IMG/VR virus record: IMGVR_UViG_3300050821_003650
Coordinates: 1 to 49,501 of that record
DNA: 49,501 nucleotides
DNA from: a virus
Strand: one strand, 5' to 3'
Position numbers and translations under genes: made by a program. Below are positions 4,581 to 33,350 of this stretch, piece after piece. Each line of letters begins with the position of its first letter. The stretch's first letter is position 1. Under the pieces are notes generated by a model. That model made no database searches and had not been told where the DNA came from. It saw only the letters and a program-made list of their open reading frames with translations.

Positions 4581-4970
4581 ATGAGCGTCCTCTGGATCCA
4601 GCAAACCTTCCGATACAAATTCCCGACCGGCGAGCCGGATATCGTTTGGGACATCGGCGCGGCGCGCCAAGCTGTGACCAGAGGCTTAACCGCCCTACCG
4701 GAGCCGGTGAGGATCGAGCCGGCGATGATGCGCGACATTTCCGAAAGCAACGAGTGGGACCCGGAACACCTGGATGGCGTTGATCCGGATGAACCAGGGA
4801 TCGCCGCGCCGATCATCGACGAGGGCAGGGTGATCTACATCCTGATTGACGGCCAGCACCGCAACGCGCGCGCGCTGCGCGATGGGAAAGCCTTCAGCGC
4901 GTACATCCTGACCGACCAGGCGTCCCGGGCGTGCGTGCTCGAGCCGCGCTCGCATCCGAGGCTGCCATGA
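4581..4970 (+). CDS. ParB-fold protein next to the partition genes
   Basis: 129 aa. Residues 80-105 contain IYILIDGQHRNARALRDGK, which resembles the DGxHR core of ParB/sulfiredoxin-fold domains (often DGNHR or DGQHR). There is an acidic stretch before it (NEWDPEHLDGVDPDEPG). It starts 3 bases after the ribbon-helix-helix gene stop, so it is probably co-transcribed. A canonical ParB helix-turn-helix domain is absent. It may be a CTP-switch-like accessory or a phage DGQHR protein of another function. Confidence 0.55.
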   Translation: MSVLWIQQTFRYKFPTGEPDIVWDIGAARQAVTRGLTALPEPVRIEPAMMRDISESNEWDPEHLDGVDPDEPGIAAPIIDEGRVIYILIDGQHRNARALRDGKAFSAYILTDQASRACVLEPRSHPRLP

Positions 4971-10108: not shown

Positions 10109-10288
10109 ATGAAAAAACGCAAGAGCAGGGCAGGGCGCCCGACCGATCCGCCGATGGCAAGCCGCGGCCGCCCGGTGAACGTCTACTTGGACGAGCACTA
10201 TCGGAACCTGGCGCGGCGCGCCGGCCGGGGAGGCGGCATGTCCGCCGGCATCCGGCTCGCGCTCGATCGCCTCGGAAATAACCAGTAG
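10109..10288 (+). CDS. Small ribbon-helix-helix-like DNA-binding protein, 59 aa
   Basis: ATG 10109 follows AAGGTGG. After a very basic N-terminus (MKKRKSRAGRP), residues 20-59 (RPVNVYLDEHYRNLARRAG, then SAGIRLALDRL) show a beta strand followed by two helices, as in Arc/CopG proteins. It is the last gene before a structured RNA element and could regulate it or the promoter region. That link is inferred. Confidence 0.55.
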   Translation: MKKRKSRAGRPTDPPMASRGRPVNVYLDEHYRNLARRAGRGGGMSAGIRLALDRLGNNQ

Positions 10289-10324
10289 CTTTAGTAAGGT
10301 ACCAGGATATTCGGGGACTGACTT

Positions 10325-10501
10325 GCATTGAGGTCCCGTTTCGGGGCAGAATTACGCATTGAAGTCCGGGACACCGGCCGTAGGCAGCGGCGCGGATTCC
10401 ACGTCAAATCAGTACGCTCGAGAGAGGGCGGGTTCCGCGAAAGCGGACCCTGCCACTGATTCAGGGCTGCCGGCCCGTCCTCCCTCGAGCGGGGAGTTTT
10501 T
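10325..10501 (+). ncRNA. Structured RNA with two mutually exclusive folds before the replication genes
   Basis: No gene fits 10289-10570. Fold 1: GGCC(GTA)GGCAGC (10376-10388) pairs with 10466-10475; AATCAGT (10407-10413) pairs with ACTGATT (10455-10461); a GAAA-tetraloop hairpin spans 10430-10450. A terminator follows at 10480-10501. Fold 2: a 17-bp stem pairs 10416-10432 with 10474-10490 (15 Watson-Crick pairs, one G-U, one mismatch). It encloses two hairpins, 10434-10447 and 10448-10466 (CCCTG/CAGGG). The long stem uses the left arm of the terminator. Upstream, GCATTGAGGTCC and GCATTGAAGTCC (starting 10325 and 10356) form an imperfect direct repeat. It could be an attenuator, antiterminator RNA or small RNA. 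No known riboswitch class is recognised. Confidence 0.5.
10480..10501 (+). terminator. Intrinsic terminator of the structured RNA
   Basis: CTCCC (10480-10484) pairs with GGGAG (10492-10496) around a 7-base loop and is followed by TTTTT (10497-10501). The stem is only 5 bp. Its left arm is also used in the alternative 17-bp stem, so termination may be conditional. Confidence 0.5.
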
Positions 10502-10570
10502 GGAAAGTGAATCCCCGTAAGTGCCATACGCGGCGCCTCAACTACGCCGCTTTCGTTCGCCGGTGACGTC

Positions 10571-10825
10571 ATGGACCGGCACACGTTCGAAGCTTCGCTG
10601 GCCTACCTGGCAGCGACTTCGAGCCTGCCAGAGGCCCGCAGGATCGCCGTGAAGGCGATCGCGCTGCGCGACCGCACCGAAGACCCTGACCCGGATGCAA
10701 GAGCGCGCCTGAACGCGCTACAGGCGGCCGCACAGCTGCGCATCGCGGCCCTTTGCACCGTCATCGAATGGGCTGCCGATTACTTGGCGGCCGAAGCCAT
10801 GCTTTCCGCGGGAGGAAAAAAATGA
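10571..10825 (+). CDS. Hypothetical helical protein, 84 aa
   Basis: ATG 10571. Nearly all helical (FEASLAYLAATSSLPEARRI; LNALQAAAQLRIAALCTVIE). No family. It ends with GGAGGAAAAAA, which is the ribosome binding site of the replication initiator gene, and overlaps that gene by 4 bases. Confidence 0.55.
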   Translation: MDRHTFEASLAYLAATSSLPEARRIAVKAIALRDRTEDPDPDARARLNALQAAAQLRIAALCTVIEWAADYLAAEAMLSAGGKK

Positions 10826-11724
10826 GCTTTGCGTACATGAAGCTTTACACGGGCGATTACCTACGCGACACGCGCCACCTCACTCCGCAAAAGCATGGGA
10901 TCTACCTGCTGCTGCTGATGCACTGCTGGGATCAGAAGGGCCCGGTCCCGCTGGACGAACAGGAAATCGCCGGCATCGCGAACTGCCGGTCAGCGGACGA
11001 AATTGATGCGCTGCGGTACATCCTGAAGAAGTATTTTTCACGATTGGAAGATGGTTGGTACCAGAAGCGGATGCAAGAAGAAGTTGCGGCCGCAGAACAC
11101 TACGCGATGTGCCTGTCAGAAGCAGGAAAACGCAGCGGAAAAGTGCGAAAAGCGCGGTCCGTCGTTCGTGCCAAATCAAGGACTGGCGCGGCTTTCGAAC
11201 CAGGGTTGAACCTGGGTTCAACCGAGGTTGAACCTCGGTCGGTAACCCCAACCCCAACCCTATCCCTAAATCCAAAAGAAAAAGACACTACCTTGTCCGC
11301 TGCGCGGACGACTGAGTCCCCCAAACTGACGCTGACAGGGGAACCAGAAACCCGGCGCCAGGCGGCTAGGGTAGGGCCGTTGCCGGGCTTCGACCGGTTC
11401 TGGAAGGCTTACCCCCACTACACCGGCCGATCATCGCGTAAGGACGGCGCCAAGCTCTGGCTGGACCTGAAGCTCGAGCCCGTCGCGGACCTGGTGCTGG
11501 CGGTGCTCGACGAGGTCAAGCGGGCCGATGATTTCACCCGCGAGGGGGGCCGCTTCGTGCCGGCGGCCGAACGATGGCTGAAAAAGCAGCTGTGGGCCCA
11601 GGACACGCTGGGGACCACGTCGAGCGAGCACCGCGCGGCCGAGCTGGTCGAAATGGGCGAGCGCGTCCTGGCCGAAGAAAGGGAGAAGGCGGAGGCCAGG
11701 CGCAAGGTGAAGGCGGCCGCATGA
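10822..11724 (+). CDS. DUF1376-type replication initiator / replisome organiser
   Basis: 300 aa. ATG 10822 follows a near-perfect Shine-Dalgarno (GGAGGAAAAAA). Residues 1-85 (FAYMKLYTGDYLRDTRHLTP, then KHGIYLLLLMHCWDQKGPVP) are the winged-helix type DUF1376 domain typical of phage replication proteins. A low-complexity linker around residues 110-190 follows. The C-terminal part (FDRFWKAYPHYTGRSSRKDG) is a DnaD/primase-loader-like helical domain. These proteins bind the phage origin and recruit host helicase. The linker DNA contains iteron-like repeats (11194-11238), as in lambda O. The next gene overlaps by 4 bases and could be a helper. Confidence 0.8.
   Translation: MSFAYMKLYTGDYLRDTRHLTPQKHGIYLLLLMHCWDQKGPVPLDEQEIAGIANCRSADEIDALRYILKKYFSRLEDGWYQKRMQEEVAAAEHYAMCLSEAGKRSGKVRKARSVVRAKSRTGAAFEPGLNLGSTEVEPRSVTPTPTLSLNPKEKDTTLSAARTTESPKLTLTGEPETRRQAARVGPLPGFDRFWKAYPHYTGRSSRKDGAKLWLDLKLEPVADLVLAVLDEVKRADDFTREGGRFVPAAERWLKKQLWAQDTLGTTSSEHRAAELVEMGERVLAEEREKAEARRKVKAAA
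11194..11290. other. Candidate replication origin: four 11-bp iterons and an A-rich tract
   Basis: Inside the initiator gene, TTCGAACCAGGG (11194-11205), TTGAACCTGGG (11206-11216), TTCAACCGAGG (11217-11227) and TTGAACCTCGG (11228-11238) are head-to-tail repeats of consensus TTSAACCNNGG. The period is about one helical turn. From 11243 to 11277 the + strand has almost only A, C and T, ending in the A-rich tract 11268-11290, an unwinding-element-like feature. The arrangement of iterons plus A-rich DNA in the initiator gene is that of lambdoid origins. Function is inferred. Confidence 0.5.
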
Positions 11725-17812: not shown

Positions 17813-18507
17813 ACATGATGTCCGACCCCACTAACTCGCAGCTTGCCGGCGCTCTCGACGGCAACGGCGCTGCCCGTAAATCCATCGACTGGGAGCGCGT
17901 CGAAATCGATTTTCGCGCTGGTTTCAAGACCTTACGCGAGATTGCCGGTCAGCACGGCATCACCCACGCCGCGATTCAGAAGCGCGCCAAGCGTGACGGC
18001 TGGGACCGCGACCTTCAGGGGCGCATCCACGCCAAGGCCGCCGCGCTGGTAGCCAAACAGTCAGTAGCCAAGCCGGGTAGCCAAGTCAGCAAGGCTACCG
18101 AGCGCGAGGTTGTCAGCGCCGAAGCCGCCATCATCGCCCAGGTCCAGACCGGCCGGCGCGCCATGGTCGAACGCCTGCGCAGCGCCGCGACCAAGCTCGT
18201 TGCCGAAATGGAGGGCATGGATGCCAACGCGTCGACCGCCCTGCTGGGCCAGCTGCGCGACCTGGCCGAAAAGATCGAGGATCCGAACGCCCGCCGCGGT
18301 ACCTTGAACCAGATTTCCGACGTCGAAAACGCCGTGACGCTCGAGGCGCGAATCACCATGTTCAACAAGCTGATGTCCAGTGCCGGGGCCCTGCTACTCG
18401 CCGAGGCCGACGTTTACGGGTTGTCGAAGGATGCGCCGGCCGGGTCCGTGCCGGCGGGTCTGTCCCTCTTCTACCCGGAGCCGGAATCACCCGGCGCGCC
18501 ATCATGA
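17809..18507 (+). CDS. Terminase small subunit
   Basis: 232 aa, starting at ATG 17809 in an ATGA overlap. Residues 24-65 (DWERVEIDFRAGFKTLREIA, then HGITHAAIQKRAKRDGWDRD) form the helix-turn-helix typical of terminase small subunits with a KRAKRDGW end. A long helical oligomerisation region follows. It would recognise the packaging site and feed DNA to the large subunit encoded two genes downstream. Confidence 0.75.
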   Translation: MNMMSDPTNSQLAGALDGNGAARKSIDWERVEIDFRAGFKTLREIAGQHGITHAAIQKRAKRDGWDRDLQGRIHAKAAALVAKQSVAKPGSQVSKATEREVVSAEAAIIAQVQTGRRAMVERLRSAATKLVAEMEGMDANASTALLGQLRDLAEKIEDPNARRGTLNQISDVENAVTLEARITMFNKLMSSAGALLLAEADVYGLSKDAPAGSVPAGLSLFYPEPESPGAPS

Positions 18508-18812
18508 GAACGCTGAAGATCGTTTTCTGGGTCCAAGACGCCGAAACGGGGGCGCTTCTGCAAGACGGGCAGCGCGACGCCTTGTCGCCGCCGCGGCTGT
18601 ACTTCCCGCTGGAGTTGCCAGATCCGCCGGACCGCCGCGACTTGTGCGATCGAATCGAAGCCGTGTCCGTCTTGATACGCAAGGCGATCGAAATGAAACT
18701 GATCCGGGCACAGGTCATCACGCGCCTGGAGGATCATCTGAAGGCGGAAATTTCCGCCCGGTTCGGGAAAGATGCCGTTCGATCGGCGCCCGCGGCTCAA
18801 TCCCGTACTTAA
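18504..18812 (+). CDS. Hypothetical protein between terminase subunits, 102 aa
   Basis: ATG 18504 overlaps the previous gene by 4 bases, and its last 41 bases overlap the terminase large-subunit gene. Strand-rich N-terminus (LKIVFWVQDAETGALLQDGQ) followed by a helical part (AVSVLIRKAIEMKLIRAQVI). No known family. Both neighbours being terminase genes suggests a packaging-related role. Confidence 0.5.
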   Translation: MRTLKIVFWVQDAETGALLQDGQRDALSPPRLYFPLELPDPPDRRDLCDRIEAVSVLIRKAIEMKLIRAQVITRLEDHLKAEISARFGKDAVRSAPAAQSRT

Positions 18813-32726: not shown

Positions 32727-32792
32727 ATTGACGGCGCCGAAAGCCTAGGACAGTACCGGGCAGCCCACTGGTCCAGGTGAACCGCGCCGAAG

Positions 32793-32847
32793 TCCCGCGC
32801 TGCCGCGGGAGAAGCCCGCGCGGGGCATGCAATGTGTCCCGCGCGGG
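32793..32847. repeat. Three GC palindromes upstream of the next gene
   Basis: TCCCGCG-CTGC-CGCGGGA (32793-32810), CCCGCGCGGG (32815-32824) and CCCGCGCGGG (32838-32847). The last two are identical 10-bp palindromes and can pair with each other or with the first. The 204-base gap between capsid gene and 32889 holds only these and the terminator. A role as RNA processing, transcript stabilising or protein-binding site is open. Confidence 0.55.
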
Positions 32848-32888
32848 TTGCAGTTCGAAATTTTCCCTCATTTTGAAGGAATGCACAC

Positions 32889-33350
32889 ATGGCACCCACA
32901 GCACCGGCGACCAACTCGACGGAAACCGTGACGATCGCTTGCAAACTGCCGCACGGCCTGGTTCTTCGTGTCTTCGACATGGTCGAATTCGACGAACCGG
33001 TGCTGGGGGGCGGGTTTCGCAAGAGCAAGATTTCGCAGGAACGGCCGGAACGGTTCGTGATTAACGGCTTTTCCCATCCGCAGAACCGCGCGGCCGCTCA
33101 CCCGATCATCGAGGGGTTCGCGCTCACGCCAGGCGTGCCGAAGGAACTGTGGGAGAAGTGGCTGGACCAGAACCGCCGTTCCGACATGGTCAAAAACGGC
33201 CTCATCTTCGCGCAGCCAAGATCGGAAAGCGCAGAGGCCATGGCCAAGGAACGCAAAGCGACGAGGTCGGGCCTGGAGCGTTTGGACCCGAATGCGCTGC
33301 CCGGCGTGAGAATCGACGCCGAAGCCATGGCCGCGCGCCGGCCGGCTTGA
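32889..33350 (+). CDS. Hypothetical head protein, 153 aa
   Basis: ATG 32889 with GAAGGA 8 bases upstream. Contains VTIACKLPHGLVLRVFDMVE, FVINGFSHPQN and ALTPGVPKELWEKWLDQNR. Phage proteins with this pattern occur between capsid and neck genes in DUF2184-type clusters. Function unknown. Confidence 0.6.
   Translation: MAPTAPATNSTETVTIACKLPHGLVLRVFDMVEFDEPVLGGGFRKSKISQERPERFVINGFSHPQNRAAAHPIIEGFALTPGVPKELWEKWLDQNRRSDMVKNGLIFAQPRSESAEAMAKERKATRSGLERLDPNALPGVRIDAEAMAARRPA

Follow-up and report, generated by a model that had tools for sequence, protein, structure and literature searches.

The non-coding stretch ahead of the replication genes of this virus is, at about even confidence, the leader of a replication operon that forms a C4/CI-like RNA with a two-outcome switch. 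The window analyzed here comprises positions 1 to 49,501 of IMG/VR virus record IMGVR_UViG_3300050821_003650. By computation, the leader is free of coding sequence, has two mutually exclusive folds sharing one strand, carries a loop that complements both flanks, and stands before a replication gene. Its assignment to the attenuator class, which is read from the sequence, appears well supported.

Leader region and gene context

The non-coding gap (window 10289-10570) is flanked by an ORF of 59 aa (10109-10288) and an ORF of 84 aa (10571-10825). The 84-aa ORF opens the downstream operon on the plus strand; it has no known relatives and its codon use is coding-like. It overlaps the DUF1376/primosomal-type replication gene (10822-11724, plus strand; PF07120, 6e-26; phrog_9327 primosomal protein, 4e-35), which is presumed to be the regulated gene. 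The first-pass annotation, too, had placed the element before replication genes.

Codon scores are below zero in all six frames of the gap and above zero in the surrounding genes. The same annotation had named a protein-coding explanation as what would count against its reading; given the negative scores, none fits. Neither an ATG nor a GTG start exists in 10290-10480. Two candidate ORFs are ruled out by codon score: a minus-strand ORF of 97 aa (10291-10584) and a leader ORF with a TTG start at 10328 (score -0.455). A ribosome-controlled leader-peptide attenuator is rejected, as no translated leader ORF overlaps the stem. No sigma-70-like promoter was found near the leader.

A ParA/MipZ-type gene and an XRE repressor are also encoded in the record, in which no match to an integrase is found. 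This combination fits an extrachromosomal prophage. Extrachromosomal prophages are the known setting of C4/CI RNAs (P1, P4, N15, phiKO2, and PY54).

Two mutually exclusive folds

The central stem had been described as 17 bp long (10416-10432 with 10474-10490). It is real: 16 of the 17 positions pair, with one A.C mismatch (10423/10483) and one G.U. The stem, denoted as P1, reaches 10415/10491, where 17 of 18 positions are paired (10415-10432 with 10474-10491). On the plus strand, the 5' strand of P1 (10415-10432) is the antiterminator arm, as indicated by pairing and duplex energy, and the 3' strand (10474-10491), supported by pairing, folds, and duplex energy, is common to P1 and the terminator. 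P1 encloses two plus-strand hairpins. P2 (10434-10447, TCCGC-GAAA-GCGGA) occurs in both folds. P3 (10448-10466, CCCTG-CCACTGATT-CAGGG) has an alternative form, GCC.CTG-ATT-CAG-GGC, and its loop contains the seqB-like sequence ACTGATTCA. In the minimum-energy P1 fold, P3 pairs part of seqB.

A consensus scan places an intrinsic terminator at 10480-10501 on the plus strand (CTCCCT-CGAGC-GGGGAG-TTTTT). The fold compatible with it (the early fold) consists of a helix between 10407-10413 and 10455-10461 (AATCAGT/ACTGATT), CTC-GAGA-GAG, and an extended P2 (GGCGGG.TCCGC-GAAA-GCGGA.CCCTGCC). That P1 excludes both this fold and the terminator was the key claim of the first-pass annotation, and it is borne out by folding of the one sequence. 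As in a transcription attenuator, an intrinsic terminator is excluded by upstream pairing.

The folds of this RNA are predictions from a single sequence. The P1 fold has an energy of -53.6 kcal/mol vs -48.4 kcal/mol when the terminator (10480-10496 plus U5) is enforced, a gap of ~5 kcal/mol. In growing transcripts, the early fold is best up to about nucleotide 10484 and P1 from about 10487-10490; P1 therefore becomes best before the 3' arm of the terminator (10491-10496) is completed at 10496. The barrier on the direct path from the early fold to P1 is ~10.5-11.6 kcal/mol before this arm is complete and 16-17 kcal/mol afterwards. From this timing and these barriers, the choice between termination and readthrough may plausibly be set kinetically.

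Loop complementarity to the flanks and a possible cis-only leader

The P3 loop complements sites on both sides of P1. The upstream, seqA-like site (AATCAGT, 10407-10413, plus strand) is also the 5' strand of the helix that closes the early fold. A complement of 7 nt within 30 nt upstream arises in 0.5% of shuffles. The downstream, seqC-like site (TGAATC, 10508-10513, plus strand) is weak (6 nt), and a complement of this length within 25 nt arises in 0.9% of shuffles. It lies about ten nt past the terminator hairpin and in no recognizable ribosome-binding site. Jointly, the two complements have a probability of 2-4e-4 when the flanks are shuffled, for sites that are short (7 and 6 nt).

A leader working in cis only is unlikely, yet it accounts for much of the above. 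Here the choice between P1 and the terminator would depend on how fast the RNA folds or is transcribed, on binding of a phage or host protein, or on a countertranscript, and no trans-acting C4-like RNA would be processed. All of the folding evidence fits such a leader equally, and the pairing of seqA with seqB is accounted for in cis within the early fold. Known plasmid leaders are comparable. In the rep leader of pT181, the choice between terminator and antiterminator is under antisense control. The replication gene of pIP501 is under antisense-induced attenuation (PMC4981023). Like the window, both have a terminator vs antiterminator choice ahead of a replication gene. Their regulator, however, is an antisense RNA countertranscribed from the opposite strand, and no promoter for a countertranscript is seen on the minus strand of the window. 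A cis-only leader also leaves unexplained the downstream complement, as well as the fact that P3 loops match flanks and ribosome-binding sites in DUF1376 leaders of unrelated sequence (see below).

How unusual the structure is

It is improbable that the element is an ordinary intrinsic terminator separating two early operons, with a strong hairpin beside it and an incidental exclusive fold. A consensus terminator is indeed present between gene blocks on the same strand, and this GC-rich phage has strong structures at other sites too. In a scan of the whole window, the region 10408-10505 ranks about 12th, within the top ~15 of 3954 scan windows, which makes the structure notable rather than unique. 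Its fold z-score is -3.6, and none of 200 shuffles is as good. The P1 duplex with the upstream leader has an energy of -34.7 kcal/mol vs a shuffle mean of -21.5, and none of 2000 shuffles equals it; the arm in this test was picked after the fold had been seen, and the z-score and the window scan are the unbiased measures. A stem that complements the terminator arm is far outside shuffles. The combination of P1 and terminator is also rare. When 1.16 Mb were scanned for this grammar (P1 of at least 14 bp, E <= -42, and a terminator on the P1 3' strand with at least 5 U in 8), three sites passed, namely the element of the window, P4 CI, and a third one. Furthermore, formation of P1 would inactivate the terminator, an interference not expected around a plain terminator.

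The structured part is shorter than the interval first annotated (10325-10501). Special structure is limited to ~10407-10501; the part from 10325 to ~10406 contributes little, and its folding is unremarkable (z = -1.3 for 10280-10410). Just 5' of the RNA is a 12-nt direct repeat, GCATTGA(G/A)GTCC (GCATTGARGTCC), with copies on the plus strand at 10325-10336 (GCATTGAGGTCC) and 10356-10367 (GCATTGAAGTCC), 31 nt apart from start to start. It is a possible operator or promoter element, and with two copies only it could be chance.

This repeat ahead of the structure, and the position just 5' of a replication gene, would also suit an element acting as DNA, i.e., a replication origin or initiator binding region with hairpins formed in single-stranded DNA. 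We consider this very improbable. There are two repeats only, no AT-rich stretch, and no GC-skew switch at the site, and the U-tract, the GNRA loop, and the terminator geometry are meaningful in RNA only. The least credible explanation is a new class of small-molecule riboswitch: exclusive folds with a terminator as expression platform agree with it, but no conserved aptamer core is demonstrable, no metabolic gene lies downstream, and Rfam gives no match. Among the functions first listed (attenuator, riboswitch, or antitermination RNA), the attenuator/antiterminator anatomy is upheld and the small-molecule riboswitch is not indicated.

Comparison with C4 RNA

Rfam searches at gathering and relaxed thresholds returned chance-level matches only, with no family and no riboswitch model. 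The Rfam C4 covariance model has no match at E <= 10, whether the search covers the entire record or the segment 10385-10525. The statement that no known class is recognizable is therefore correct for sequence families. It does not hold for architecture, since the arrangement is that of P4 CI and C4.

Phage P4 (NC_001609) served as the positive control. Its CI region, identified by Rfam as C4 (RF01695, 74.9 bits), has a 76-nt long stem with two hairpins in the same P1/P2/P3 layout. The second loop, TATCCTGTGAA, complements both an upstream site (TTCACAGG) and a downstream one (TTCACAGGA). The 3' strand of the stem pairs again downstream (GCTATCGCC...GGCGATAGC), followed by GTTATTT, a U-rich tail. 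Hairpins resembling this post-stem hairpin are visible in the sequences of phiKO2 and RCS47. In the P4 lysogen, CI RNA pairs with seqA and seqC, which leads to early termination of replication-gene transcription (PMC4825925).

The window RNA shares several properties with C4 RNAs (P4 CI, P1/P7 C4, N15, phiKO2, and PY54). In these RNAs a long P1 encloses two inner hairpins within 75-77 nt; the window has a long stem enclosing two hairpins at 10415-10491, which at 77 nt is within the C4 layout of about 75-87 nt. In C4 RNAs the second loop complements upstream seqA and downstream seqC targets, for which the window has short candidate sites. In both, the 3' strand of P1 is also used by the next hairpin before the regulated gene. 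Both RNAs are non-coding leaders of replication or immunity genes, and the gene content of the window fits the phage-plasmid context of C4 RNAs.

There are also differences. The target sites of the window are 7 and 6 nt long, and those of P4 are longer (8 and 9 nt). Canonical C4 has a second complementary pair (b' with b1/b2), for which the window offers a weak 6-nt candidate, read by eye (GGCAGC 10383-10388 with GCTGCC 10466-10471); no downstream b2 element was seen by eye. Unlike C4 systems, the window has a proper U5 intrinsic terminator, its upstream site abuts P1 and can pair in cis, and no icd, ash, or ant genes are recognized. The window RNA probably works like C4/CI, as a distant variant or a convergent form, one to which the C4 covariance model gives no match.

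Leaders of other phages with the DUF1376 gene

Searches by DNA similarity in phages and plasmids and by exact patterns in IMG/VR yielded nothing related to the RNA. The nearest phage relative (G001; IMGVR_UViG_3300037235_000083) is 97-99% identical along long structural stretches and lacks ~4.7-17.5 kb of the window, including this region. It thus offers no covariation on the window RNA itself, and the leaders of the same gene were examined in other phages. As a separate observation, G001 has ~24 kb extra between the end and the start of the window. The ends of its contig correspond to 4.7 and 17.5 kb of the window, which suggests an opening within the replication region.

Four other phage groups with a DUF1376 gene have leaders that are similar in layout and unrelated in sequence. 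Like the window, they combine the same downstream gene, the P1/P2/P3 arrangement, and a P3 loop that complements a flank or the ribosome-binding site. In L007, the terminator lies within the P1 3' strand (z = -4.98) and the P3 loop CTACAC matches upstream GTGTAG. In L025, ATTCGTAC matches GTACGAAT immediately 5' of P1. In L009, the P3 loop TCTCCCAA matches the DUF1376 gene's ribosome-binding site, TTGGGAGA. In the L016 group (L014-L022), loop TCCATC and its match GATGGAGG, the ribosome-binding site before the start codon, are both invariant. The helices of this group have two pairs changed on both sides, with 100% of cells paired, in a set of few sequences. Among these four, only L007 has an intrinsic terminator, as the window does, and the L009 and L016 leaders point to translational control.

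Taken over all five groups, matches between P3 loops and flanks exceed those in shuffles (Fisher p = 0.008, which is optimistic since loci and loops were partly chosen after earlier looks; 0.97 for the P2 hairpin control). In most of the more distant DUF1376 phages and prophages, a coding gene takes the upstream position instead of a leader RNA. A GTDB scan with the DUF1376 alignment found none. A class-wide genome search gave 16 genomes; in the seven loci inspected, no comparable leader was present and the upstream sequence was mostly coding. Automatic detection of pseudoknotted three-way junctions lacked stringency, and most loci were not separable from shuffles. The repeats upstream in L001 fold no better than shuffles. 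Before another DUF1376 gene, L026 (~4700-4900) has tandem strong inverted repeats (CGAAAGGATGACG..CGTCATCCTTTCG; AAACCGAATTCGGTTT twice), perhaps operators or an origin.

Proposed mechanism

In the C4/CI-like reading, the leader would be transcribed as one unit, and 10415-10491 (~77 nt) would form a P1 hairpin with two inner hairpins whose P3 loop complements both flanks. If the early fold (seqA-seqB pairing and extended P2) persists, the terminator at 10480-10501 would form and the replication genes would remain unread. If P1 forms, the terminator arm would be occluded and transcription would go on. Processing may release the P1 hairpin as a stable small RNA, as happens in P4 and P1, and the loop of such an RNA would act in trans on the complementary sites of nascent transcripts. 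The outcome would be prophage immunity or replication control, with repression and activation both possible. Since the seqA-seqB pairing lies in the terminator-compatible fold, a trans RNA on seqA should favor P1 and readthrough, except where it binds the P1 arm as well or has its effect at seqC.

To our knowledge, few phages are known to confer prophage immunity through RNA, and most of them are enterobacterial (P4, P1/P7, N15, and kin). We suggest tentatively, as a generalization that may well not hold, that C4/CI-like antisense RNAs are a widespread replication control, unrecognizable by sequence, in non-enterobacterial DUF1376-type phages and phage-plasmids, acting by termination in some and by masking of the ribosome-binding site in others. 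The window RNA would be one member, and Rfam C4 would be the enterobacterial corner. If such leaders, with regulatory logic retained and sequence lost, precede initiator genes in environmental phages that are not related to one another, RNA immunity is much more frequent than family models indicate. The predicted loop-target pairs are directly testable through compensatory mutation.

Other features of the record

Downstream of the replication gene, the ORF at 11780-12835 matches phrog_887 (queuine tRNA-ribosyltransferase, 4e-49) and could be a DpdA-like DNA 7-deazaguanine modification gene. Between the genes for the small and large subunits of the terminase lie ~300 nt (18486-18784), vs ~43 nt in the close relatives L054, L055, and L056, indicating an insertion or deletion. 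A very strong isolated hairpin, GCCCGCGCGGGGCAU...GUGUCCCGCGCGGGU, is found at 32793-32850 in the gap before the ORF at 32889. The surrounding region (32741-32885) has a fold z-score of -3.5, and the hairpin is possibly a regulatory element of the structural operon.
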